IMG/VR virus record: IMGVR_UViG_3300029922_000038
Span: 25,353-89,352 of that record
Source of the DNA: a virus
DNA: 64,000 nucleotides
Direction: 5' to 3' (one strand)
This document shows, one piece after another, positions 972 through 26,300 of this stretch (position 1 is the first letter of the stretch; every line of letters starts with the position of its first letter). The notes beneath the pieces are model-generated. The model worked only from the letters and a program-made list of their open reading frames with translations. It did no database searches and was not told the DNA's origin. Both the position numbers and the translations under genes were made by a program.

Positions 972-1532
972 ATGAGTTCTCGTAAAATTACTGTGTACTC
1001 TACACAGACTAATAAAAAGAGTGAAGTAAATACAGATGTAGCAACATGGGCAGAACTGCAAGCAGTAATGACAGATGCTGGTATTACCCATGAAGGTCTA
1101 ACTGCAACAGAAAACAGGACAAAAACTAATTTGTCTTTAGGAGCAGCAGTTCTGCCAGAAGGAGAATTTGTTCTATTTCTTTCGCCAAGTACTAAAATTA
1201 AGAGTGGTACTTCTTGGAGAGATATGTCTTATAATGACATCAGGAAACACGCTACTTCAATTGGTGTATCTGGTTTAGGTACAACCGCAGAAATTGGTCA
1301 AAGGATTGAAAACTGGGAGAAAACTAACAAGAATACATCATCTTCAAATGATATTCTTAATACTAAATTTCCTACAGTAGCTGCTAAACTTGATGCTTTT
1401 ATTAAGCATACAGATAAACAATTTGCAGAAGTATCAGAAGCTGTTAATAATAGTGATTATTTTGATAATACTCCTTTTGGAGAAGATGACAATTCTAATC
1501 TTGCAAATGAAGCTGCAAGTCTTGGATTGTAA
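972..1532 (+). CDS. Ubiquitin-like (beta-grasp) protein with SAP-like domain
   Basis: Residues 4-79 alternate strands and one helix as in beta-grasp proteins of the ThiS/MoaD/prokaryotic-ubiquitin type (RKITVYSTQ, ATWAELQAVM, FVLFLSPSTKIKSG). Residues 86-115 (YNDIRKHA, GVSGLGTTAEIGQRI) look like a SAP/HeH helix-extended-helix DNA-binding motif. The remainder is polar and ends NEAASLGL, with no C-terminal GG. The next genes resemble E2, JAB and E1 proteins, so the context supports a ubiquitin-like partner. The missing diglycine makes covalent conjugation uncertain unless the tail is trimmed or the role is non-covalent. A strong terminator follows the gene. The fold assignment is from pattern alone. 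Confidence 0.55.
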   Translation: MSSRKITVYSTQTNKKSEVNTDVATWAELQAVMTDAGITHEGLTATENRTKTNLSLGAAVLPEGEFVLFLSPSTKIKSGTSWRDMSYNDIRKHATSIGVSGLGTTAEIGQRIENWEKTNKNTSSSNDILNTKFPTVAAKLDAFIKHTDKQFAEVSEAVNNSDYFDNTPFGEDDNSNLANEAASLGL

Positions 1533-1554
1533 TAAGTTTCATATTTTTAATAGT

Positions 1555-1590
1555 AAAATAGGGGTAGAAATGCCCCTATTTTATTTTAAT
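1555..1590 (+). terminator. Intrinsic terminator after the ubiquitin-like gene
   Basis: A 10-bp stem (AAAATAGGGG at 1555-1564 with CCCCTATTTT at 1573-1582) has an 8-nt loop and runs into a T-rich tract. It lies 23 bp after the stop of the beta-grasp gene. It would uncouple that small protein, in higher amount, from the E2/JAB/E1 genes downstream. Confidence 0.85.
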
Positions 1591-1599
1591 ATTTAATAT

Positions 1600-3144
1600 A
1601 TGTATGAATATAAAGCAGGAGATATAGTAAAAATAATAAATGGGAAAGGAAGTGATTTAGGTAGTATGCTAAATGGTAAAGAGGTTATATTAGATACTCA
1701 ACCAGATGATGGCTATAGATTAGGTACAGATAGTAAATATAATCAAAAATTAGTATTTTCTTATTTTGATAGGGATGGAGATTTAGTAGATTCATTATAT
1801 TTTAGAGATGAAGATATAGAACTTGTAGGTTGGACATATATACCAGATTATGAATTAATAAAAGATAAAAGGTTTAAATTAATAGAAACTGATTTAAATG
1901 AACAATTTGTTAATCCTAATTATATAAATAGTGAAGAAGTTTATAAGCATGGACTTATAGAGTTAGATTCAAGAGGATATTTTTGTAGTTTTGGAGGATC
2001 TATGATTGATTTACAAATTAGAGTATCTTCAAATTCAGATAGCCCGAATTATAATATTTTTAATGAACTTCAATATAAAGTAGAAATAAGATTAGATAAT
2101 ACTATTAAGATATTTTATAAAGAGCCTCAAGTAATATTTGATATTTCTATTATAGAAGAATATAAAACTATATTTAATGATTATTTTAAAGAAGATTGTG
2201 AAATTAGAAAAATAAATAATATAGAATATGAATTTGTAATTCATTTTCCTGATATAATTATAAAAAATGAGTTAGATAAAACTCATCCAATTAAAGACTT
2301 ATATGTATTTTTTAATCTTAAGGTATTACAAAATAATAGATTTGTCTTTATGAGAGAAAATCAATCAGATTATTATTTAAGTGGTTGTAGAGGAACAGTA
2401 ACAGATAGAGAATATGCTGTAAAATATCAACATTCTCATTTATCTTCTGGTTATCATAATTCTAAATTTTGTTTAGGGACTGGCCCCATTTTAACTAATA
2501 TTGCTGCATTTAATATGCGGAATGATAGTTTATTATTTGAAAAAATAATGTTGGATATTATAGATTATATAAGTGTTGAAAGTATAGAAGGTACTCCATA
2601 TATTGAATTTAAATGTGTTTATACCCCAAGAAATCAACAAAGAATTAATATAAGTGATTTACAATTACGACAAGAATATCTAAATTTCTTATCTTATTAT
2701 GATAATTTACCTGTATCTATTAGTAATTTAGAAATAAAAGTAGATGAAAATAATCCTGAATTTATTAAACAGGTATCTGCTATTACTAATTTTATAAATG
2801 GTCAGGAATCAGAAATACAAATTAGTAATAGCGATAAGAATAAATTAATGTTAATATTTAAAAATGAAGAAGTTAGACTTAAAATTATTAAAGAAGAAAA
2901 AACAGATGAGCAAAATAAAGAGCAGCTACAAAGAGTTGCAAATACAAGAGTCCTCCAATATATCGCAAAAAAACTTAGTGAAGACTTATCAGACAAAGCC
3001 ATTAGTGGAATTACCAGGAAGAGCGAAGCTGGTTATTTCACAGGAACTTTGGTTGAAGATACATCAACTTCACTTGAATGTAGGGAAAATAGAGTGGTCA
3101 GGAGTATTGTTTCTAAAAGTGGAAGGAAACTTACTAAATTATAA
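1600..3144 (+). CDS. E2-like (UBC/RWD-type) protein
   Basis: A 514-aa protein at the E2 position of a ubiquitin-like cassette. The central part has strand-rich sequence followed by HSHLS (His278, His280) and FCLGTGPI (Cys291). This spacing recalls prokaryotic E2-like families, in which an HxH-type segment precedes the active-site cysteine; Cys291 would be the candidate catalytic residue. The N-terminal third and the helical C-terminus (from about residue 400) are not recognised. From about residue 456 the reading frame overlaps the JAB frame by 281 nt, and the last ~55 residues look like out-of-frame sequence. The natural product may therefore end earlier or continue into JAB by slippage on the A7 tract at 2967-2973. 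The family assignment is inference. Confidence 0.5.
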   Translation: MYEYKAGDIVKIINGKGSDLGSMLNGKEVILDTQPDDGYRLGTDSKYNQKLVFSYFDRDGDLVDSLYFRDEDIELVGWTYIPDYELIKDKRFKLIETDLNEQFVNPNYINSEEVYKHGLIELDSRGYFCSFGGSMIDLQIRVSSNSDSPNYNIFNELQYKVEIRLDNTIKIFYKEPQVIFDISIIEEYKTIFNDYFKEDCEIRKINNIEYEFVIHFPDIIIKNELDKTHPIKDLYVFFNLKVLQNNRFVFMRENQSDYYLSGCRGTVTDREYAVKYQHSHLSSGYHNSKFCLGTGPILTNIAAFNMRNDSLLFEKIMLDIIDYISVESIEGTPYIEFKCVYTPRNQQRINISDLQLRQEYLNFLSYYDNLPVSISNLEIKVDENNPEFIKQVSAITNFINGQESEIQISNSDKNKLMLIFKNEEVRLKIIKEEKTDEQNKEQLQRVANTRVLQYIAKKLSEDLSDKAISGITRKSEAGYFTGTLVEDTSTSLECRENRVVRSIVSKSGRKLTKL

Positions 3145-3307
3145 AGATATGGAGTTTACTGCTGTAGATATGTATCTTATGGATATAGGAGATGCGACAA
3201 GTACAGAGTTTGATTTCCAAGATACAGCTTGGCTAAATGCTTTTGATGAAAACCCAGATTTAATGGGATTAAAAATGGGATTATGTCACAGTCATCATTC
3301 AATGGCT
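2864..3307 (+). CDS. JAB/JAMM metallopeptidase, exon 1
   Basis: First exon of a JAB (MPN+) isopeptidase-like gene. The domain starts near nt 3000 (KLVISQELW), has the catalytic-type glutamate in KIEWSGVLFL, and ends at CHSHHSMA, the first half of the JAMM signature. Read straight on, the frame stops at 3316. Joined to exon 2 it gives HSHHSMA-TFFSGTD, an exact H-x-H-x7-S-x2-D zinc motif. Family members remove ubiquitin-like proteins or trim them. The start is uncertain: ATG at 2864, ATG at 2906, or no separate start if the upstream E2 frame slips +1 into this one. The exon ends in phase 0 after an alanine codon. Confidence 0.8.
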
Positions 3308-3336
3308 AAATATTAGTTATTTCAATAAATATTGTT

Positions 3337-3344
3337 TATATTTG
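3337..3344 (+). promoter_or_regulatory. Promoter inside the intron for the endonuclease
   Basis: TATATTTG (followed by TAC) fits the Bacteroidetes -7 element TAnnTTTG. It lies 22 bp before the ATG at 3366, so the endonuclease could be expressed separately from the JAB transcript. No clear -33 TTTG is visible. Confidence 0.5.
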
Positions 3345-3365
3345 TACATAATAAAATGTATAAAT

Positions 3366-4193
3366 ATGAAATTACTTTCAAAACAAGAAAAAGAAAAAAT
3401 TGCAGAATTATATGATTCTGGATTAAATGCAGTAGAGATTAAAAGAGAGATGGGTTTAAAAAATCATCAACAAGTATATAATGTATTAAAATATTTACCT
3501 CAATATCAAGCATATAAATATGGTAGAGGGGATAATAGAAAATATACACTAAATGAAGATTATTTTAAAATTATTAATTCAGAAGAAAAAGCATATATAT
3601 TTGGTTTTATATGTGCAGATGGACATGTAGCTTTTAATAGACTAAGAATATTAGTAGCAACAAAAGATAAAGATATACTTGAAAAAATTAGAGTATGTTT
3701 AGAGTCTTCTGATGAAGTAGAAGATGTAATTAGAGAATCCAGATTTTCTTATGGAAAAAGATTATTCTATCATTCGCAAATAGCATTTAATTCAATTAAA
3801 CTTGCAAAAGATTTGTTAAATTTAGGATTAGATAGTAGAAAAACTTATTCTTTATCATCAAAAATATTAGAAAATATTCCTCTTAATTATATGAAGGATT
3901 TTTTAAGAGGATATTTTGATGGAGATGGGAATGTTATGTATGGGAATAAATATAGTTCTGGTAAGAAATATCTTATTCAGATAGCTGGGAATAAAGAGTT
4001 TTTAGAAAATTCTTTTGGAAAATATTTTCCAACAACTAATAAGTATTATTTTTTCCCTAAATCTATACAAACTTGGTGTTATAAACTATCATCTAAAGAA
4101 AATGTGAATAAATTTTTAGAATATATTTACAAAGATTCTACAATTTTTCTTAATAGAAAGTATAATATTTATAAAAATAATGTGGCCATTTAA
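3366..4193 (+). CDS. LAGLIDADG homing endonuclease (intron-encoded)
   Basis: A 275-aa intron endonuclease that would cut intronless JAB alleles and spread the intron. The N-terminus is a helix-turn-helix (residues about 5-42, EKIAELYDSG then LKNHQQVYNV). Two LAGLIDADG-type helices follow at about 76-87 (AYIFGFICADG) and 179-190 (LRGYFDGDGNV), each ending in the acidic residue that binds the catalytic metal. ATG 3366 is preferred over the upstream non-ATG codon because the promoter-like element ends at 3344. The last codons (Val-Ala-Ile-stop) overlap the intron's guide sequence, so gene and ribozyme share bases. Confidence 0.9.
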   Translation: MKLLSKQEKEKIAELYDSGLNAVEIKREMGLKNHQQVYNVLKYLPQYQAYKYGRGDNRKYTLNEDYFKIINSEEKAYIFGFICADGHVAFNRLRILVATKDKDILEKIRVCLESSDEVEDVIRESRFSYGKRLFYHSQIAFNSIKLAKDLLNLGLDSRKTYSLSSKILENIPLNYMKDFLRGYFDGDGNVMYGNKYSSGKKYLIQIAGNKEFLENSFGKYFPTTNKYYFFPKSIQTWCYKLSSKENVNKFLEYIYKDSTIFLNRKYNIYKNNVAI

Positions 4194-4453
4194 AACACAT
4201 TGAATTGCTGGAAACCTAAGTCTATTTATAGATATGGCAATCAGCAGCTAAGATTAATCTTATGATTAATAAAGTTCAGAGACTATCGAAAACACAGTTT
4301 AAAAACTGGAAGTTAGTAGAGTACATCCAAGTGGATGGAAGCGGTGTGACTTTACACTTAGTAAAGTATGATATAGTCCGATACCACGTAACTACTGAAG
4401 TTACTATACCGAAAGGGTGGAAGTTGTCTAACGAACAACAGGTAAATTTATTG

Positions 4454-5251
4454 ACATTTTTTTCAGGTACAGATATAGGGCATTTACATTCTCAATCTCC
4501 AGATCATAATTACTTTCTATCTTTAATTGTTAATTTTGCGTGTGAACCAATTGCTAAAGTAGCTTTTGCTTCTACGCGAAAATTAGCTTCATCATCTTCT
4601 TTTAGTTTTAGAGATGATGAAGGGAATATACAATTTCAAGAAGATAATAGTAATAAAGAAGAAGATATTACAGTAGTATTTAATTGTGATGTATTTGTAG
4701 AAATAGAACCTAAACTTCTTGATAGAATAGATGAATTAAAAGAAGCTAAGAAAAATAGGTATAAACAATTTACAAATAATTGGAATACTAAAAAACAAAA
4801 TTATATTCATACTGATTTTGATTGGGAAAAATGGAAAGCTGAACAAAATGGAGAAGGAATAGCTACTGTTTGGGATACTGAAGGTAAGAGATTAAATGCT
4901 ACTGATATTCAAACGGAGTTTGATTTTAGTAATCATGAAAAACTTATTGCAGATTCACAAATAGAATATTTTACTAAATGTTTACTTGCTGATACTTATA
5001 ATGATTATGAGAAAACAGTAGAATTATTAGTAGAAGATAGAAATGCTTGTGTAGATACAAATGCTGAAGCAAGACAATGTTGTATGGCCATGCACATGAT
5101 GTATGATTCTGTTTTTCATGATGATACTTATTTTACTGAAGTCATGACTAAAGTTATAGCTCTATTAGGTAAATATAAAAGTGATTTTACAACAAAGATG
5201 ATTTCTATCATTAAACAAGAATTAAAAGAATATGTCAGCACAGAATTATGA
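4454..5251 (+). CDS. JAB/JAMM metallopeptidase, exon 2
   Basis: Second exon, starting TFFSGTDIGHLH. It supplies the serine and aspartate of the JAMM motif (S in FFSG, D in GTD) and the rest of the domain to about residue 50. A 200-residue C-terminal extension follows, with a charged helix (about 95-125), DFDWEKWKAEQ, and a cysteine/methionine-containing stretch (CVDTNAEARQCCMAMHMM). The extension is unrecognised and may bind the E1-like partner. Bases 4262-4453 are open in the same frame but belong to the ribozyme core, so a start at 4262 would give a false gene. The 3' end overlaps the E1-like gene by 20 nt, which suggests translational coupling. Confidence 0.85.
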   Translation, partial: TFFSGTDIGHLHSQSPDHNYFLSLIVNFACEPIAKVAFASTRKLASSSSFSFRDDEGNIQFQEDNSNKEEDITVVFNCDVFVEIEPKLLDRIDELKEAKKNRYKQFTNNWNTKKQNYIHTDFDWEKWKAEQNGEGIATVWDTEGKRLNATDIQTEFDFSNHEKLIADSQIEYFTKCLLADTYNDYEKTVELLVEDRNACVDTNAEARQCCMAMHMMYDSVFHDDTYFTEVMTKVIALLGKYKSDFTTKMISIIKQELKEYVSTEL

Positions 5252-5939
5252 TAGATTTAAAGATGCTCCTTGGTTCAAACCCCTTAAAGTAATTGTAGGG
5301 GGTGCTGGAGGTATAGGTTCCAATCTTATTTATCTCTTAGCTAAAATGCCATATCGAATTTATATATATGATTTTGATGTAGTAGAAGCACATAATAGTT
5401 GTCAAATGCTTGGAGGTTTTACTAATATAGGTAAGTTAAAAACAAGAGCAGTAAGAGAACTTGCACAAAAATTATCAGATAATTATGGTATTAGAGAGTT
5501 TGGAGAATATACTTCAGAAGGAATGGTAGACGATATTATGTTTGCTGGATTTGATAATATGAAAGCAAGGAAGTTAATGTATGATAACTGGAAACAATAT
5601 CAATTAACTAAAGTAGAAGAACCTGCTATAGAAGAACCTAAGAAAGAGGTTAATTTATTTGTAGATATGAGATTAGCAGCAGAAACAGGTATTATATATT
5701 TTATAGACTCTAAAGAAAGAATGGAAAGATATGAAGCTGAATTATTTGATGATTCAGAAGTTCCAGATGAACCATGTACTTTTAGAGCTACTGCTCATGC
5801 TTCTATGTTAATAGCTTCTTATGCTGTTGCAGGGTTAGTTAATAAGGTAACTAATGTTGAATGGGGAATAGAGGCAAGAGAAGTACCATTTAAACTTAAT
5901 TTTGAATTACCATTATTTAATATGAAAACAATTGTATGA
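5232..5939 (+). CDS. ThiF/E1-like adenylyltransferase
   Basis: A Rossmann-fold ATP-binding protein of the ThiF/MoeB/E1 superfamily, expected to adenylate the C-terminus of a ubiquitin-like protein. The nucleotide loop GGAGGIGSN spans residues 23-31. YDFDVVEAHNSCQ (46-58) and IGKLKTRAV match the family's DxDxV...N..Q and K positions. It is 235 aa, a single domain, without the CxxC zinc pairs of MoeB. The cysteine in PCTFRATAHA near residue 181 is the only obvious thioester candidate. It overlaps the JAB gene upstream and the next gene by 4 nt. It resembles proteins often annotated 'PRTRC system ThiF'. Confidence 0.8.
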   Translation: MSAQNYDRFKDAPWFKPLKVIVGGAGGIGSNLIYLLAKMPYRIYIYDFDVVEAHNSCQMLGGFTNIGKLKTRAVRELAQKLSDNYGIREFGEYTSEGMVDDIMFAGFDNMKARKLMYDNWKQYQLTKVEEPAIEEPKKEVNLFVDMRLAAETGIIYFIDSKERMERYEAELFDDSEVPDEPCTFRATAHASMLIASYAVAGLVNKVTNVEWGIEAREVPFKLNFELPLFNMKTIV

Positions 5940-6964
5940 TAGAGCAATTACATATAGAAAATAATTTTGGATTTATATTACAAAATCATGGCATTAAAGA
6001 AAGTAATTCTTATTGTGAATATGTTCCTTTTTATATATTAAAGCAGAATACAGATTCTTTAATAAAATTAGAACAAGAGAATAGGCAAGGTATAGAAGAA
6101 ATATATAATAATTTATATCATGAGTTTCAATTATGTCAAGATCAAACTTTTTCTCAATATTATACTATTGCTGAATTACCTGCTTTATTTCAAGAAAATG
6201 ATATTATTAGTCATAGATTTAGATTAAGAAATTATGAAGAAGGAATATATTCTCCTTTTAATTTAGAAATAGAAGAAAATATAATTAGGCAATATGAAGA
6301 TACTAAAAAATTTATATCTTTATTTTCATTAGTAATTCCTATTAAATATGTACCTTATGTACAAATATGTTTAATGTTAGAAGAACCTATTGATTTAAGA
6401 GTATATGAATTTTGGATTAAAGAAGATTTTGATATTAAAGATTCTATTTATACTAATTATAGAAAACTATATAGAAAGTATTTATTACCTGATTTAAAAG
6501 AGAATAATGTTCCTATTGTAGTTAAAAAAGATATAGATAAAGAACTTTATTTCTTTCCTGAAATGCCTAAATTTAAAAGAACTTCTGATTATGATAAATA
6601 TGTAGAAGAACTTGTTAAAGATAGTATTATTAAATTAAGGATAGATAATGGTATACAAGGTATTAATAATGATTTTCGTGTAACTTTTGAAAGTAATGAT
6701 TATATATTAGAAGAAGGTACATTAAATGTTAATGGTACTACTTGGAGAACTTTTAATAATTCTGGAGATAATTTAGTATCACAAATAATGAGTACTGATA
6801 CTTATCAACCGTTAACTGCTGCAAGATTAGATTCATTTATATCAAATTTAACTTTTAATTCAAATAGTTCATTAGGTAGTAATATGCCCCCTGAAGAAAA
6901 TCTAAATCATATTAATAATGAATTATATCAAGAAGCATTAAGGAGTATGGAAACTTCTGAATAA
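5936..6964 (+). CDS. Unknown protein of the ubiquitin-like cassette
   Basis: A 342-aa protein, not recognised. It starts 4 nt inside the E1-like gene, so it is probably translated with it and may belong to the same complex. It is rich in Asn, Glu, Ile and Tyr, with mixed strand/helix sequence and no membrane segment or catalytic motif that I can see. After its TAA the same frame stays open for 25 acidic codons to 7042 (EEQEIENGAL...GDEF), so the stop may be a recent nonsense change. Confidence 0.7.
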   Translation: MIEQLHIENNFGFILQNHGIKESNSYCEYVPFYILKQNTDSLIKLEQENRQGIEEIYNNLYHEFQLCQDQTFSQYYTIAELPALFQENDIISHRFRLRNYEEGIYSPFNLEIEENIIRQYEDTKKFISLFSLVIPIKYVPYVQICLMLEEPIDLRVYEFWIKEDFDIKDSIYTNYRKLYRKYLLPDLKENNVPIVVKKDIDKELYFFPEMPKFKRTSDYDKYVEELVKDSIIKLRIDNGIQGINNDFRVTFESNDYILEEGTLNVNGTTWRTFNNSGDNLVSQIMSTDTYQPLTAARLDSFISNLTFNSNSSLGSNMPPEENLNHINNELYQEALRSMETSE

Positions 6965-14335: not shown

Positions 14336-14367
14336 AAAAGGGGTTAGAAATAACCCCTTTTATTTTT
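14336..14367. terminator. Bidirectional terminator between convergent blocks
   Basis: An 11-bp stem, AAAAGGGGTTA (14336-14346) with TAACCCCTTTT (14351-14361), loop GAAA, is followed on the + strand by ATTTTTAA. It lies 5 bp after the end of the - strand giant gene, so it stops the long structural transcript and any + strand transcript arriving from the left. Confidence 0.85.
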
Positions 14368-17300
14368 AATATGTTTTAGTAAGTGATTCCTCTGTAGAAA
14401 GAACTTGGTCAGTAAGAGGTAAAGCCTTCTTCACAGCCCTTCCAATTCTTGATTGACCACTATACTCACCACCAGTTATTTTATCCTTACCAGTAGAAGC
14501 ATATTGCCCTACAGCATGAAATATTTTACCAAAGTTAGTTACTGTTTGTACAGCAGGTATTACGTTCTTACTCATATCTACAAATGAACCTGGATTATAG
14601 TAAAATGAAAGTTCATCTAAATTCCTATGTAAGATATTAGACATATAAGTAAGCATCTTAGGATGATTTTTATCTTTATCTTTTTTAATAGCCATAAATG
14701 CAATCAGCATAGTTGACATTAACATCATCTCTTTAATATTAGCTCTCATATTAGCAATATCAACAGGAGATAAACCATCTATTTCAGTATCTCTATTTAA
14801 TAACTGATTTTTAGCTATTTTAAAAAATGATTGCATAGATTTAGTAATGCTATTATTATTTGCCCTATACATATCTCTAATAGATAACCATCTTCCTTTA
14901 AATTCTCTACCTAAGTCTTCATCATAATAAGATTCTGCTAACCTATTATTGAATGTATTAGGTATCCAGTTTCTAAATGTGAAAGCTAATCTACCAATTG
15001 CATTCTTTTTAGCTAATACTGCATAAGCATTATGGTAGTTACCGTGTATAATTTCAGATAACTTTTTAACCCGTAAAGCAGCATCCTTCATTATCCTACT
15101 ATCTTCTAAGTGTGAGAACTCTGGTTTAAATCCAGTACTTGTTCTTGCATCCCATAAATTATAGAATTGTTGTTTACCTTTAGCATCAATATAATAAGTT
15201 TCTCCTTTATCATTAGATACAGGCATATGTAGAAGTGCAGCAACCATCATTCTACCCTGACCTATAATTTCCTGATTCTTCATCATGAACATAAGCTTGT
15301 TCATAACTCCTTTTGCTTTAGATTGCCCTATTTCTTCAAATTCTCCAATAGTGCCCATCTTTTGCATCATATCATTAAATTTGGCTCTTGTTTCTTTATT
15401 TACTGAATTAGTAATTAAACCAGCTTTCCTATATTCTTTAGTACTAAAATCAGTACCATAAGAAGCATGTATTCTATTAGTAATACCAAGTAGCGTATGC
15501 CTTGTAATAGCCGCAAGTGGGTTCATTGCAAGTCTTGTAAATACAGTTGTATGAAGAAGTGCATCTATTGCTTTAGCTCCTGAAAATACTTTACCATTTT
15601 CATCAGGTTTACCTTCCATTTCTTCTGCTTTTCTATTACCATAGAAAGCATCTACACTATATTCTGCTCTTTCAATAGTATGTTTGAGGTCTTTATTACC
15701 TTTAATATTCTCTTGATTTCTAATAACATCTAAGCCATTAAGGATAGCATCTTCAACTTCAGTTTTAACCTTAACTGCTGCTCCCATTTCTACATATTTC
15801 TTAAATATAGTAGGAATATCATCTAATCTATCCTCTTGTGAAAGCTTGTCTCCCATCATACCATTTCTTAATCTTGCAATGGGTTTATTAGTAGCAGGGT
15901 CAATAGCATCATTTGTATGGTCAACAGCATCTTTATAAAGAGTATCTTGAGCTTCTTTTTTTAATCTACCAAATACTCCATCTACATCAAATAAGTTTTT
16001 CATAAGAGGTCTTGCAAGTTCAGGTAAATCCGACTTCTTCATAGATTTACCCATATCAAGATAAGGATCATATTTCTCTCTAAGTGAAAAAAGATATTTA
16101 TAATATTCTTGTAATTTTGGATTACTCTCAAGTGCATTATATTTAGATTCTACCCATTCATCATTTACTTTCTCTGGGATAAGATACTTTTGCCCCCCTT
16201 TTTTCCATAAGGCTTTTGTATTAGCTTCCCCATTCCTAATGTCATTTTCAGTAGAATATCTTATAAATGGACTATTTTCATGTTCCCATTCTTTTAATCT
16301 ATCTGTTTTAGCTTTTAAGTAAACAGCTTCATTTTCAGATTTAGTTTCTCCAAATTCAATATCTAAAGTATTATCAAGATGTTTAATATAATTAGTTCTA
16401 TCTTCTTCATACTTATCTAATAATTCTTTCTGTCTTGCATGAGAATCTTCACTAAATCTATCATCAGTTTCTCCATTTTTAACCTTATTAATATCTATCC
16501 TATATTTATTATTTAGTCTAAATAGACTCAATTCCCCTATTTTAGATTTATCTCCTTTATTAATTTCATCTTGAATTTCTTTTTCTTTAATATAATATTC
16601 AAGTCCAGTTCTTGTAATAAGTTCTTTCTTATTATCTAAGCCAGTTCTTGTAATCCTATCATGAAAATCTTTACCTAATGATTTAGTAAGGTCTTTATTA
16701 TATTCTTCTAATTTCTTTTTAATATCATGACTTTCATTTTCTCCATCTTGTGTAGATTCAGATATATATCTTTGTACAAGTCTTTCATTTGCATTATGGG
16801 ATAAACTACTATTTACAAATCTTGAACCTGCCCATCCAGTATCCTTATCTGCATTAAACATATCTTCTTTATAGATATTACCAAAGGTATTATTACCTTC
16901 TTTAAGGGCAACTATTCTTTGAGCACTTAATAATCTTTTTTCTGCATCTGAAAACTTAACTAAGAATTTACCAACAGCTTCTGATTCAGGATTATCTTCA
17001 CTATGGTCAAAACTCTTTAATAGTGAATCATATCCCCCCATATAAATCTTAGCTATTTTAAGATTATGAGAAGTAGGATTACCATTTATTAATTGATTAG
17101 CTTTAGTAAGATTATCATTAGACAAGGAGAGAACAGATTGTAAATCCTGTTTAGCTACTAATTTCTTAATTTGAACATTAATATTCTGCAAAGCTTCATC
17201 TTTAGCTGTTACTTCATTAGAAGTAATTACTTTTTGATTTTCCCAGGTTCTCTTTTGATTTTCTAATTGCATAAGTACTTTTCTAATACCAGGATCAGTA

Positions 17301-20300
17301 ATAGAATCATATTTATCTTTCTTATTTTCATCTTTAAAAGAAGGACTTTCGGCAGTTAGATTTACATCTTCTAACTTTTTATTAAGAACTTCTTTTAATT
17401 TATTCCAATTCTCTTGAAAATCAGTCTTTCTACCTTCTAAATTATCTTCTACCCAATTTGCAATAGCTATTTTAGCCTTTTCTCCAGGAGTTGCATTTGG
17501 ATTATCTAATACTGTTTGTTTATATTGTTCAGTTTTATTAATCTTACCATATAAATTACTGATAATAGGATTTTTATCCCCTAATAGTTCTATAACTTTA
17601 TTACCAGAACCCCTATCTACTTCTGATGGATTAGAAAGAGCATATTTAATTTGAGATAGTCCAGTATCTATTTTTTCAGGTTCTACTATATTTTGTTTTT
17701 CTTTTTCCCCATCTAAAGAAGTAAGTTTTAATACATTAGATACTAATTCTGATAAAGCAGAGCCTTCTTTAAGATTAGGAAATACAATAGTTTTAATAAG
17801 GTCAACTATTCTTTGAAGAATAGATTTACCACCATATTCTAAATTATTAAGCTCTCTTTGTAATCTTGGATCAGATAAACCATAAGATATAAGTTCTCCT
17901 ATACCATATTGCTTATTATCAGAACCTTTATCATGAGCATTATTAAATATATGGTCTAATAGAGCCTTAGTATTATCCTCTCCACCTACTTCAGTACCTC
18001 TATGTAACTGTATTTTATCTTGATTCTTATCTACAAATTCATATAATTTCTCTAATGATTTAATCGCAGTTACTTTTTTAATATCTGTAATTTTACCATC
18101 ATAATAATCATGTAAATCTTTTAGAGTTAATCCATGTAAAGCTTCATGGAAGATGGTTTCTTGTTGCCTACCTTCATTTTCTTCTTCTAAAGGATTAAAT
18201 TTAAGTGTAGTATCTCCACTTTCCTGACCTACATGAGCACTACCTTTAACTTTGAGTGTAGTAAATTCATTTTTCATATCTCCTATTTTTGGTAAAATAA
18301 GAGAAGCTAATTCTTTATAAGCAGGAGTAGCAGGGTCTTCTATAATAGCCCTAAGTGTATCTTCTGTTTTACCTCCATCTAAATGATATTTTTGACCTAA
18401 TTGATAAGCAGTAGGTAATTCTTTAAAATTAGTAGGTTGTTTTTCAGGAATATCTGCTCCAGGTAAAGTATTATTTTCTACTTTTTGATAGCTATCTATA
18501 TTATTCTCTTTATATAAAGAATGATTTACATCTTTATCAAAACTATATTCATACATATTACCAGTGCCAAGAGTATTTATCTTTTGATATACACCATCTT
18601 CTCTATCTTCATATAATCTATATTTATTAGATGTTTTAGAATATCTTGAAAGATACTTAGGTGCTTGCCATACATCATTAACTTTATCCCTTCTAAAAGA
18701 TACCATATCATTAGAATCCAAATTCTTTAATTTAAAAGAATCTATATCCCCATCTTTACCTTTAACATCAGTAATTTGAGTAACATCTTGTTTAACCCTC
18801 GTTGCTTGAGTAGGATTATGTTGAAATACTTGTCTTTGTACTCTATTAAAAGCTAAAGAATCATTGAAATCTATTTTACCTTTTTCAGAAATAAGATTTT
18901 CTTTAGCCCAATCAATAGGAATATATTTAACAAAAGAACTTCTTGATTGTACTCCACCATTAAGATAGGAATAAGTAATTAAATCTTTTGCTATTTCTCT
19001 AACTTCAGGGTCTTTAGAATGAATAGCATTATACCATTTTAAACTATTATCAAATGAAGTATTATCATCCTCTGCTTTTGCAGCATCATAATTAATTTCA
19101 TCAGGATTACCATAAGATTTAGATAATTTAATACCAGAAGCTAATCTATCTAACCAAGGATCTTTAGTTCTTGCTTCCATAACTCTGATGGCAAGGGATT
19201 TATTAGAATAAATTTTATTACCGTTTTCATCAAGAGTATATTCACTTACATTTAATCTTTTTCTATCCCCCTCTATATCATTAGATATAAAACCTTCTTT
19301 AGTAAAAGAAGAAGCCTTCATATTAGTGTGCATGAGGTCATACACTTTAGAAGTAAGAAAGTTAGATTTACCCACTTCTTTTAGAAAACTATTTTCAAAT
19401 CCCTCATAGGATTTAGTATAATAAGGAAATAATGTGCCTAATGTTTCTGCTGCATCTAATCCTGTTTTAATAATATTACCCTCTCTTGTCCTCTGCCCAT
19501 CTTTAGCAAAAAATTCATTTCCACCATTAATATGAGGAAGGCCATCTTGAAGAATACTACTTATTTTTTCATTAGCTAATTTAACATCAGATATAGATTT
19601 ACCTAACCCTTGTGAAGCAGGAGTCATAGCAGACTTTAAAGTTGTCATATCTCCAGCTATTTTATCATAAGCAATAAAGTTATAAAGTGCTTGATTTTGT
19701 ACTTTAGTATCCCCATTAGTGAGAGAATCATTCATCTCCTGCCTTGAAAGAGCTTTTACTTCAGTAACTCCTCTACTTTTTAAATCAGCTAAAGTTTTAT
19801 CTGTAAGCTGTCTTTTAGTAAGTTTATCTTCAAAAGATAATGTAGGATCATTAAGAGATTCTAATTTAGATATATAATTTTCAATAGAAGGTTGTCTTAG
19901 AAAAGGTACAGTAAAAGTTTCATCAAATCCTGTTTTATTAAGTAATTCATTAACTCCAAAAGTAAAAGTATTAATACCAGCTTTTGCAAGTATTTGAGCT
20001 TTAGCTTGGTCAACTGCTGATTGAAGTATTTCCCCTATATAAGAGGATATTGGTTTTCCATTAAACCCTTGTGTTTTATTAAGAATATATGCACCTTTTC
20101 TAATTTCACTATTATCATGATATATAGAACCATTATCTTGTTTAAATAAGACTGCATCATCATGGGTATTACCATTTTTATCTTCTAATCCTTGTGCAAT
20201 ATGTAGAGAAGTTTCTTGAGATAAAGTATGATTTCTAAGTGAAGAAGCTGCCATTGCAGTAATATCTTTACCTGCTTTATTATCTTTAAATACTTTATCT

Positions 20301-23300
20301 GTAGTACCCCAATAGAGAATGGAACCCTGTTTAGTATCTTTATTAATAAGGGCATCTATTCTATCAGATTCTGTTTTAAGATTACTAAAATCAGCAGGAG
20401 ACATAGTTTTATTAAGTAACTCTTCAGAACCTGCTATTTTATGATTAATATCTATAATCTTATTTTGTTTAGATTCTACTGTATCCTGATTAGAGTCTAC
20501 TTTTGATAATTTACCATCTTCTTCTAAATCATAATTATAAGTAAGATTATAAAGTTTATCAATATCAAAGTCAGACCCCATCTGTTTAACAATTTCATGG
20601 GGTACTAAAGCCATATCCTGATGACGTGGATCTAAATATCTAACTACTTTAAATCTCATTGTAGAATTATGTGGAAGGTGTGGTATCCTCATTCCTATAT
20701 GAAAATGAAGTTCATCATCCATCATACCTTCTTTTGGAGTACCATCTTTATTTATATACTTAGTATAATCAAGTAAATTACCTTCTTTATCTTTAAATCT
20801 CCAAGGAAGTGCTATTTCAGAATATCTTGAATTATCTTTAGGGTCTATTAATTGATAACCTAATCTTTTATATCCTACGGAAGAAGTCTGAATATATGAA
20901 TGTCCTGGAAGTTGAATATCCATCAAATTATTACTTATAAGGGAAGTAATCATAGGTTCAATCTTCTCTGCTTTAGTAGAATATGCCATATCAATAGCAA
21001 ATTTACCAGTTGCAGAATTAATTTTAAGTGCAGCAAGTTCATTAGGATTCCAGCCTAATGATTCTCCTTGTTTAATAAGATAGTTGCTTAGTTTAGTAAG
21101 ATCTTTTAACTGACCATCTTTTACACCCCATTCTTCATTAAGTTTAGTATGGGCATTATTAATTAACCATGAGTGAGCTTCATTATAAGGAGTTCTTAAT
21201 TCTCCAATAGTAGTATCCCCAATTTTAAAATCATCTGATAAATCAGCAAATAAGTTTACCCTTTCTTGTGTAGGTTGAGCAATAGTATTATCATCATGAT
21301 GAGGCATATCTTGCTGAATACCCCATCCCTCTCTTGGGATAGTTACACTATTATTAGCAATTAAATCTTCTAAATTATCTACTATATTACCATCTTCATC
21401 CCATATAGAAATAGGAGATTGCATGCCTAATTTAGCACCAGATTCATAAATAGCAGAAGCTATATCATACTTCTCCATCATCTTTCTCAAAGCATCCATT
21501 GAATGACCTTCTGTAATATCTTGTGATAATACTGCTTGTGAAGTCTTGTTATAGATAGCTTTATTAATACCATTATCAATATCAGAAGAAGTATCAACTG
21601 GCTTATTAGGTTGTAAATGTATATCTTCTTCTGGGCTAAGTTCTATGTGATGACTACCATCTTCTACTGACTTATCTATCTTTGATATAATAGAGTTATA
21701 AATAGAAGGTTCTATTTTACCCATTTTATATTGCCCATATAAATATTCTTTTCTTGTAGAAAGTTCTTGAGCATCAGTAGCATTAATAGCATTCTTTTCT
21801 TTATATTGATCAAGGGTTTCATTAAGAACTTTACCATCTAAATCATCTGATATAAATTTAGGATAGAAATCTTTAAGATAAATAACTTTTCTTGTTTCTC
21901 CTTTACCAAAGTTAGGTACTTCTCTTGGTGCTATTTGCATAGCTGCTCTTTTATGAAAATTATCAAGGGTTTCTTGAATAGACTTTTTACCAAATTGAGC
22001 AGGATCATTAAATAAGGTAGCTAATAAATTAGCTTTATTTATAGCATCATTTACTAAGAAATCAACTGCTGAATGTTTAATAACATCTTGTAATTTATCA
22101 GCTATATTTGTAGATGCGCTATTTTTAATAACATCTTGTTTATATGATTTATCCCCAAGTATATCTTCTATCCCAGATTTATTATTAGATATAATGCCAG
22201 ATTTCCTCCAATCTTCAATAGTCTGTTTAACCATTCCATCAAGTTCAGTTCTGATTATATCTTTTACATGATTCATAATATCATGTGCAAATGGTACTTG
22301 TGTCTCCTGTTTACCACTTATTTTATCAAATGCTTCAGGACTAACTTTAAATACTTCAGGATTTATTTTACCATTCTTTAAATATAATCCTATATCTCCA
22401 GGTTTTTCACTGATAGAATCATTCATTGAAGGGAATAAGAAGAATTTTAATCCTGCTTTTGCCCCAGTGTGATAGTTTTGTAGATATTGTTTTTTAGTAA
22501 AAGTTTTATCTTCTTCTTTAGTAGTAGTATCCTCTGCTTGTTCTATTTGTTTAGCTGTTTGCCTAACCCTATACATTTCTCCAGCAACAGCATTATAGAA
22601 ATTATCTATAACATGTTCAGGGAAATTATATTTACCATCCTGAAAGTTCCAACCATCTATATTAACTTTAGCGTCATTAATACTTTGAGTCATAGATTTA
22701 TCAGATAAAGTATATCCAGTAAATTTACCATAATTAGTACCTTGATTCTGAAATAAAACTAATTGTGTAAGTTGTCTTACTTTATCATTCATATCACCTT
22801 TAGTAATAGGATCTTCTTTAGACCCCCACATATCAGTAGTATCAAATAATTTAATGACAAAGTTTTTAGCTCTTTCAGTATCCCTTACAAATGATTTAAT
22901 AAGAGGATTGTTAGTAGCAAAAGCTGTTTGTTCAAGTTCTGCTGCCCTACCAGTAGATTGTAAATTATTAAGAGTATCACTTTGATAAGTAGTCTTATTT
23001 ATTAAGAATACACTATTCCCTTCTCCATTTCTATAAGAAGCCCCCCAATTGTCACTTTCTTCTTTAGCTGCTGCTCTTGCAAGCATATTTAAAGATGAAG
23101 TTTCAGTAGAAAAAGGATTATTCTTATCAAATAAATCATCTGTATTCTTTTCATCACTCTTTAATCCAGCAAGTCTTTGAAAAATATAAATAAGTTTACC
23201 ACTAAATATTTCTTTATCTGTTAAAGGTCTTTTAGTATCATCATTAGGATTATATTTAATATTCTCCTTATCTCCACTTACATTTCTAAGCATTTTGGGG

Positions 23301-26300
23301 GTAACATCTATGCCTACTTCATTAAAATGTTTGGCAATATCTGCCATTTGTTCATCTGAATAATACCCATTTGGGGTAGCAGAATTAACTAATTTAGTAT
23401 AACTATTAAGCAATTCTTTAGCTTTATCAGTATTTATTTGATAACCCCCTCTATTTTCTCCTGTTTCAGAAGATTTTATATATTCACTACCTAATAATTG
23501 ATTTTTCCATCTTTCACTAATCCTATTAGTAAGACCACTTTTGCTTGCATTTTGTATGTAAGCTGCCATTTCCCCCTTCTTATTATCTAAAAGTACAGAA
23601 TCATAATCAGATAATTTCTTTCTAAAGTTAGTGTTAAACTCATTTATAAGTTGAATATCTGCTTTTTGAATATCCCCACCACCTGTTAATTTGTCATATA
23701 ATGCTTTTAAGTTAGGATTTTTAGCTGCCAATTCTTGTAATTTGCCTAATATATTATAAGAAGGTGTATCTACAAGGTGCATAAGTACCCTATTATAGAG
23801 TGCTGTATAATCCTGAAACTTTTGAGTACCTAAAATAGATTCTACAGGTTTACCTTCTTTATCCATTTCTGGTATAAAGTACATAAACTTTCTCATATTA
23901 GCAGAAGCACTATCTTTAGGATTAATCTTTAAAGATGCCCCATCGCTATAATTAATTCCGGCAACTCTTTCTTCTTCAGATAGGGTTTCTCCTTTAATAG
24001 AAGTTTTAAAATTATTAAGATTTTGTTCTATTAAACTTTTAAACCCTATAAAACCATCTTCTTTTGCATCCCAATGAGCAAGGGCAAGAGTTATAAAAGG
24101 TTTAGCAGAATCATTGGTAGTTTTAGAATTTAAACTATTTAAAAATATATCATATACATTATCAAAGGCATCTGCTACACTTTCTCCTTTATTATTAACC
24201 TGATCTAAGAAATGATAAGTAAGTTCATCTACTATCTGGCTTTGTTGGGATAGGGATACATTTTCTAACTTATAATCTTTTATATTTAAAGAAGGTACTG
24301 GGCTTTCAGCAGACAGAGTCTTATTAAGGGTAGTAATTACTTCATTGGTTTTACCCCTCTTTGGAGTAAATTGATGAGTAGTTTCTTCTACCTTAGTTGG
24401 TTCTACCCCTGCTACATGAGTAGTTATAGGTTCTTCAATAGGTTTAATTTCAGATGGTAATATATCAGTATCAAAAGTAACAGTAGGTTGTACAAAGTAA
24501 GACCTACTACCATCTTTTTGTATAATAGGAGATAGATCTGTACTAAGTATATTATTCTTTAATAAGAAATCCATATAATTAGGATAATTCTTAACTATAT
24601 GTGAACCATTTTCATCTACTTGAGAATGGTTATATTCATCCTTAGAATCAATAAGATCAGCTTTTACAGTATGGGTTTTACTATCAAGTACAGTAGTTAT
24701 AGAAGTATTATGTTGGTCTAAATTATATTTAGATTCATCATAAGATTCTCCTTCTACAAACTTACCAGAAGTACCATAATTAATAATAAGTTTATCATTA
24801 ACCAATGATATATTAAATGTTTGACTATTAAGTTTTAGGTTCTTAAAGTCATCACTTACATAAGTAAATTGTTTAATAAAATCTTGTAGCCCTTTTAAAG
24901 AACCTACATTATAACCATTAATAATAGTATTACCCTGATGCTTTAAGTATGTATTAATAGCTCCAAGAATTAAACTTTTATCATTATTAGATATTTTTGC
25001 AATATCTAAAATATGCCCAAAATTAACATCTTGTACAGGAGTTTTAGTAACCATAACTACAGTACCAGCTATTGCTTGGTTAGTTATAGTTTTATCACTG
25101 CCTTGCAGTAACCCATTTGCTTTTACAATAGCTAATTCCCCATCTTCAAATCTATTAAGATTATTTTTACCAAATGCTTCAGTAGGGGTATTAGTAGTAC
25201 CTTCTTCTAATATATTCCTATAACCAATACTTTTATCATTTATAACTGATTTAAGCGTTTTACCTGGATTTTTTATTAACCAATCCCTTATTAAAGCATG
25301 TTCTTTAAATATACTTTCATTTCTATCTTTTAATTCATCACTTGTTCCAAGATTTTTATTTAGCCAATCTTTTGTATGGAGATATAAATCAGGTTTCCCC
25401 TCTTGTGTTATTTTAATAGGTACATTATATATATCTTCTTTATTGGCTTCATAATCTTCATGTTTAGTATCTAATGATAATTCTATTTCAGAACCCATTT
25501 CATAAGAACCAGGAGCAGACATTTGAATATATTTTTGTTCTATTTTAGGAGTTCCATCTTCATTAAAACTTCTTACTATTGTGTAATGTTCATTTCCTTT
25601 AGTATCTATAATAGTATCAACATGAAAATCTGCACTATGAAATGCCGCTTGTGCTCCTACATTAACTTGTTTACCTTCTTCATCAGTAAGAGGTTTACCA
25701 GTTATAGGATTAGTTATTTGACTTTTTTCTCCAACAGTAACATTTTTATTAGTTACTTTTTCTTCCTCAATATTAGGATTTTTAACATCCCCTTTAATTA
25801 TTTTATCTTCTGATACAGGGGATTTTATAAATCCACTATCTCCAAGAAATCCTTCTGGATTACCTACCTGATTATCAGCTTCTGTAATTCCCTCTTCACT
25901 TGTTGGAGTTCCTTTTCCAATTGTTCCTTCAGTTTCATTAACTCCTGTATTTTTTGTATCATCTTCTATTTCTGATTGTTTATTTGTTTTTTTAGTATTA
26001 TCTTTTCTATCTAATTCTTCTACTCTATCTGTAATTACTTTTTTAACCTCTGGCTTTTCATCAGAAATTTCATTTGACAAATCTACTAATTTAGTTTTAT
26101 TAGTTTCATTTTTAACTTCTTTTTTTAAATCTTTAACTCCTTGCTTATTCTTTTCAACAATTGCTTGTTTAGTATCTTCAATATTTTTTTTAATAGTTTC
26201 AGGATCAGTTGCATCTCTAAACTTATCTCTTGAAATCTTTAATGAGTTTTCAAGTTCTGCCTTTAGGCCAGCTTTTTGTTTGGTAAAATGTTCAGCTAAT

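Follow-up and report, generated by a model that had tools for sequence, protein, structure and literature searches.

A group I intron with a LAGLIDADG endonuclease gene inside the zinc-site codons of a phage JAB/MPN-family gene

The window analyzed here is a 64-kb stretch (64,000 nucleotides, nt) of the 89-kb virus record IMGVR_UViG_3300029922_000038 of IMG/VR (positions 25,353 to 89,352 of the record), in which a gene for a protein of the JAB/MPN family is interrupted by a group I intron within the codons of its zinc-binding JAMM motif. Unless stated otherwise, all features lie on the + strand of the window. As unspliced DNA, the region 2864-5251 holds three separate frames: one of 150 amino acids (aa) ending in HSHHSMAKY and a stop, an endonuclease frame of 275-283 aa, and one of 329 aa that includes TFFSGTD. 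These are the three misleading products that the original prediction had expected from annotation. The last of them, which it had called an unrelated protein, is an artefact, the first 64 codons of the '329-aa protein' from 4262 being supplied by the intron core.

JAB exon 1 (2906..3307) carries the JAMM glutamate (EWSG) and the HSH, with EW and HxH invariant among the relatives, and exon 2 (4454..5251) runs from TFFSGTD through the stop codon. The 1146-nt insert between HSHHSMA and TFFSGTD lies exactly where it had been predicted, and joining 3307 to 4454 fuses the two halves in phase to give H-S-H-(HSMATFF)-S-GT-D, which is the exact HxHx7SxxD spacing of the JAMM motif. Counted from ATG 2864, the spliced frame comprises 413 codons. 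Regarding the gene span of 2864-5251 given in the original prediction, the end was retained, whereas the start is more likely ATG 2906, with 2864 as a possible alternative. At 2864-3144, the beginning of JAB and the 3' end of the gene upstream have about 240-280 nt in common, compared with an overlap of about 60 nt in crAss001; where JAB truly starts is uncertain.

The frame of exon 1 is closed by an in-frame TAG (3314..3316) two codons past the 5' splice site. The catalytic Glu and both His are encoded by exon 1 and the Asp by exon 2, so a complete zinc site cannot be made from unspliced RNA; JAB activity would thus depend on splicing, because translation of the unspliced RNA should halt at 3314-3316. 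A stop codon soon after the 5' splice site is thought to aid ribozyme folding via ribosome stalling (PMC3984707).

The intron extends from 3308 to 4453 (1146 nt), as given by a match to the Rfam group I model RF00028 and by the splice-site pairings. The last base of exon 1 is U3307, the last base of the intron is G4453 (terminal omega-G, 4453..4453) and the first base of exon 2 is A4454. P1 is formed by the exon strand AAUGGCU (3301..3307) and the internal guide strand GGCCAUU (4184..4190) and has seven pairs, including U3307.G4184 at the splice site, and P10 is formed by the guide strand AAUGU (4179..4183) and the first bases of exon 2, ACAUU (4454-4458), with 5/5 pairs. A single 12-base guide (4179-4190) therefore pairs with both exon ends; it is unique in the 64 kb, and its chance expectation is 0.005 per random sequence of intron length. 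Shifting the junction by +1 would yield an identical spliced product, and only at 3307/4454 does a U precede the 5' site and a G the 3' site.

The covariance search suggested with the original prediction was performed on 2800-5000 and returned RF00028 at 4138-4398 (54.5 bits against a gathering cut-off of 50 bits, E=1.5e-12), with the model matched along its entire length (1-253). Searching the complete record gave RF00028 a second time (E=1.4e-14), whereas a scan of the whole window with fast gathering filters missed the intron. The hairpins P3, P4, P5, P6, P7, P7.1, P7.2, P8 and P9 could all be placed. The 5' strand of P3 (CACAUUG, 4196..4202) has its partner at 4342-4348 (CGGUGUG). The P, Q, R and S boxes that had been noticed before form P4 and P7, respectively: the P/Q boxes give P4 (5' strand 4205..4210, partner 4242-4247) and the R/S boxes give P7, the guanosine-binding helix (5' strand GACUA, 4281..4285, partner UAGUC, 4374-4378). 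Single-sequence folding placed the P7.1 hairpin (4295-4308) and the P7.2 hairpin (4324-4337) within 4295..4337, which are features of subgroup IA; a P8 hairpin lies at 4349..4367. The intron is probably of the IA type, the likely subgroup being IA2. When helix strands were assigned by hand across nine introns from different phages (the MAFFT alignment of the cores was unusable beyond Q), standard pairs were found in 62/63 cells for P3, where several pairs were changed on both sides with compensatory exchanges of AU, UA, GC and CG at the same positions, and in 45/45 cells for P7, where changes occurred in one sequence.

The P1 loop contains a LAGLIDADG homing endonuclease gene (3366..4193, 275 aa) with matches to PF14528 (40.3 bits, E=3.9e-10) and to the endonuclease family PHROG 4645 (E=3.9e-45). 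Its frame is intact and includes two LAGLIDADG stretches (FGFICADG and LRGYFDGDG); no PDB chain was matched by sequence. The guide sequence is part of the final codons (AAT GTG GCC ATT and the stop TAA), a feature that had not been noted before; open reading frames (ORFs) that reach into core intron sequence are a pattern described in reviews (PMC3984707). A promoter-like element, TATATTTG (3337..3344), lies 29 nt upstream of the endonuclease ATG and fits, as a motif match, the Bacteroidota -7 element TAnnTTTG. The motif was spotted first in the window and then checked in seven other endonuclease ORFs, of which four (L071, L106, L002 and L186; the two antisense genes among these are related to each other) have it 25-32 bases upstream and a fifth at 12 bases; it occurs by chance in 6.3% of random 80-base stretches. 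This suggests that the endonuclease genes may be transcribed independently from promoters of their own.

The JAB identity of the host gene, assumed in the original prediction, is borne out by its relatives, 29 of 43 of which matched the Prok-JAB profile at E<=0.01 (best 4.6e-7); the spliced protein of the window itself gave E=0.023, which is under the Pfam cut-off. The E, H, H, S and D of the JAMM motif are invariant in the relatives. A structure model of an intronless relative (L003; predicted local distance difference test score, pLDDT, 86.6) has the MPN/JAMM fold, and its Foldseek matches were structures of COP9 (CSN), Rpn11, AMSH and PfJAMM1 with E-values of 1e-5 to 1e-7.

An uninterrupted JAMM motif was found in 88 distinct relatives (all fetched loci). 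The stretch is continuous in crAss001 gp77, cr106_1, cr128_1, FpV4 and three IMG/VR contigs (e.g., HSHNNMATFFSGTD and HSHHSMATFFSSTD). The loci of the best 80 of 128 relatives were surveyed with EWSGxLF, a peptide that lies wholly within exon 1, so that the survey was independent of the insertion; 76 were contiguous, three were interrupted and one was cut by a contig end. Relatives thus have one contiguous JAB gene, and an arrangement as separate proteins, which the original prediction had named as contrary evidence, was not seen among them. Each of the three interrupted loci contains a group I intron (66.4, 69.8 and 76.4 bits) that separates the first His codon of HSH from the Ser codon (His|Ser-His), 18 nt upstream of the site in the window. 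This second insertion site goes beyond the original prediction. Its carriers are IMGVR_UViG_3300029904_000005 (L071/L086), IMGVR_UViG_3300031994_000081 and IMGVR_UViG_3300020112_000305, and the introns are 1039, 300 and 1174 nt long. Each guide (UGUGA+GUGGAUG or UGUGA+GUGCACU) fits the exons of its own gene. In one of these introns (L106) guide and exon have changed together, from CAUCCAU/GUGGAUG to AGUGCAU/GUGCACU, which is what a working P1 would predict. The second-site introns are 83-85% identical to each other, whereas the comparison with the core of the window yielded one 50-nt match at 74%. As the intron lineages differ, the two sites were probably invaded separately, and the motif was probably invaded at least twice. 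A LAGLIDADG gene lies antisense within the intron in L071/L086 and in L106, where the endonuclease is 31% identical to that of the window; L096 has none. Antisense homing endonuclease genes are already known from introns in nuclear ribosomal DNA (PMC9548176, PMC2585584).

Taken as a whole, the locus is almost certainly the product of a mobile group I intron, probably of the IA type (IA2), that homed into an isopeptidase-like phage gene of the JAB/MPN family, at the codons of the JAMM zinc site. The intron RNA would bind guanosine in P7, the RNA would be cut after U3307, held by P1, and exon 1 would be joined to exon 2 across P10 with release of 3308-4453, which would restore the full JAB frame. 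In JAB alleles that lack the intron, the LAGLIDADG enzyme would probably cut close to the HSHHSMA|TFF codons, after which the intron would be copied in by repair. Insertion at catalytic codons, described in the original prediction as typical of homing elements, agrees with the documented habit of group I introns of residing at active-site codons (PMC3943268). Several observations weigh against this interpretation: splicing is deduced from sequence, the Rfam score is just 4.5 bits over the cut-off, folding of the core gave a modest free-energy z-score of -1.7, and the exon 1/intron junction of the window had no second copy in the viral contigs searched, so that homing of this particular intron is not visible in the data.

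The deduced nature of splicing and the modest Rfam score, together with the overlap of the endonuclease frame with the guide, would also fit a decayed, non-splicing intron, in which case the phage would either make a truncated JAB and, separately, a C-terminal protein, or lack JAB entirely. This is very unlikely, given that the core helices, the two splice-site pairings and the omega-G are all intact, that both exons are open and in phase, and that the host gene is contiguous in nearly all relatives. Less probable still is a domesticated intron acting as a switch, with splicing efficiency timing the production of the JAB isopeptidase during infection. The placement of the intron would make JAB activity all-or-nothing on splicing, and regulated group I introns exist, e.g., under the control of cyclic di-GMP (c-di-GMP; PMC3984707), but the Rfam scan of 2800-5000 gave no match to a riboswitch-type family at E<=1, and most relatives are without the intron, which argues that the phage group needs no such switch. 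Readings of the insert as an intein, or as a free-standing endonuclease gene flanked by two others, were considered on account of the LAGLIDADG endonuclease, a domain also known in inteins, and rejected as having a negligible chance of being correct, since the TAG ends the exon 1 frame and leaves no continuous ORF, and the endonuclease gene, with a start and a stop of its own, is followed by a group I ribozyme core.

With the mobile group I intron as the preferred explanation, it appears reasonably likely, at a clearly lower level of confidence, that the JAMM zinc-site codons are a recurrent intron target, reached by two group I lineages 18 nt apart with related LAGLIDADG genes in opposite orientations, each probably with its own Bacteroidota-type promoter, among them endonuclease genes located within phage group I introns in antisense orientation.

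Regarding the phage context, the terminase, portal and major head genes in the window match PHROGs at 1e-60 to 1e-122, and the terminase shares approximately 40% identity with its counterparts in crAss-like gut phages. The gene order of DNA primase, unknown genes, JAB and a ThiF-like gene is as in Steigviridae crAss-like phages (e.g., crAss001); JAB adjoins a ThiF-like gene also in Flavobacterium phage FpV4. The region 972-6964 is a possible ubiquitin-like cassette whose members are a small protein encoded at 972-1532, the HSH...CxG protein encoded at 1600-3144, JAB and a ThiF/E1-like protein (5232-5939), and the order of the cassette genes is conserved in crAss-like phages. The conserved HSH...CxG of the 1600-3144 product resembles E2, an idea for which a structure search gave no confirmation, and the ThiF protein as query against viral contigs found no relatives. 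On the - strand, 14366-28558 is a 4730-aa ORF that may encode the giant transcription protein known from crAss-like phages. The same record, outside the window, holds a second group I intron in a family B DNA polymerase (PolB) gene (G000:C1:14593-14839, 121 bits); this intron (L002) is located at NSVFG|KLG, and the ORF before its core resembles, as judged by eye, a GIY-YIG endonuclease.

The kind of intron is in itself ordinary; what is new is the JAB host gene and a zinc motif struck at two positions by two intron lineages. An earlier report of a JAB/JAMM host gene was not found in the literature searched, most subscription journals being outside its reach. A deubiquitinase-like JAB gene thereby joins the known hosts of phage group I introns, and a catalytic motif that was probably struck more than once offers a clean natural case of mobile introns choosing unchangeable codons. 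In phages with the intron, gene callers are expected to break JAB up into three misleading proteins. The family offers intronless alleles and alleles with an intron at either site for a direct comparison of homing and splicing.

In comparison with JAMM/MPN isopeptidases (CSN5, Rpn11, AMSH, PfJAMM1 and the bacterial BubCD), the phage protein has HxHx7SxxD and the upstream Glu in common, whereas its identity to them is merely 8-18% and its isopeptidase role is predicted. Regarding the intron, the core is 74-83% identical over 110-130 nt to introns in the DNA polymerase genes of Flavobacterium phage FpV21, Felixounavirus phages and the crAss-like phage cr3_1, the nearest being those of FpV21 (83%) and of a Felixounavirus phage (77%). 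The P, Q and R boxes are identical, and there, too, the host gene is split into two annotated coding sequences; the host gene in the window, however, is a JAB/JAMM peptidase and not a polymerase, and its endonuclease gene lies in the P1 loop ahead of the core, whereas those of FpV21 and cr3_1 follow the first part of the core. CrAss-like phages carry many group I introns in phage genes, with encoded endonucleases (Yutin et al. 2021, PMC7886860), and the window shares their hallmark genes for terminase, portal and major head protein; neither JAB nor ThiF is mentioned in the main text of that study. The group I intron td of phage T4, with I-TevI, likewise interrupts a core phage gene and carries an endonuclease gene (PMC2988022), but the T4 enzymes are of the GIY-YIG or HNH type, whereas that of the window is a LAGLIDADG enzyme, and the host genes differ.
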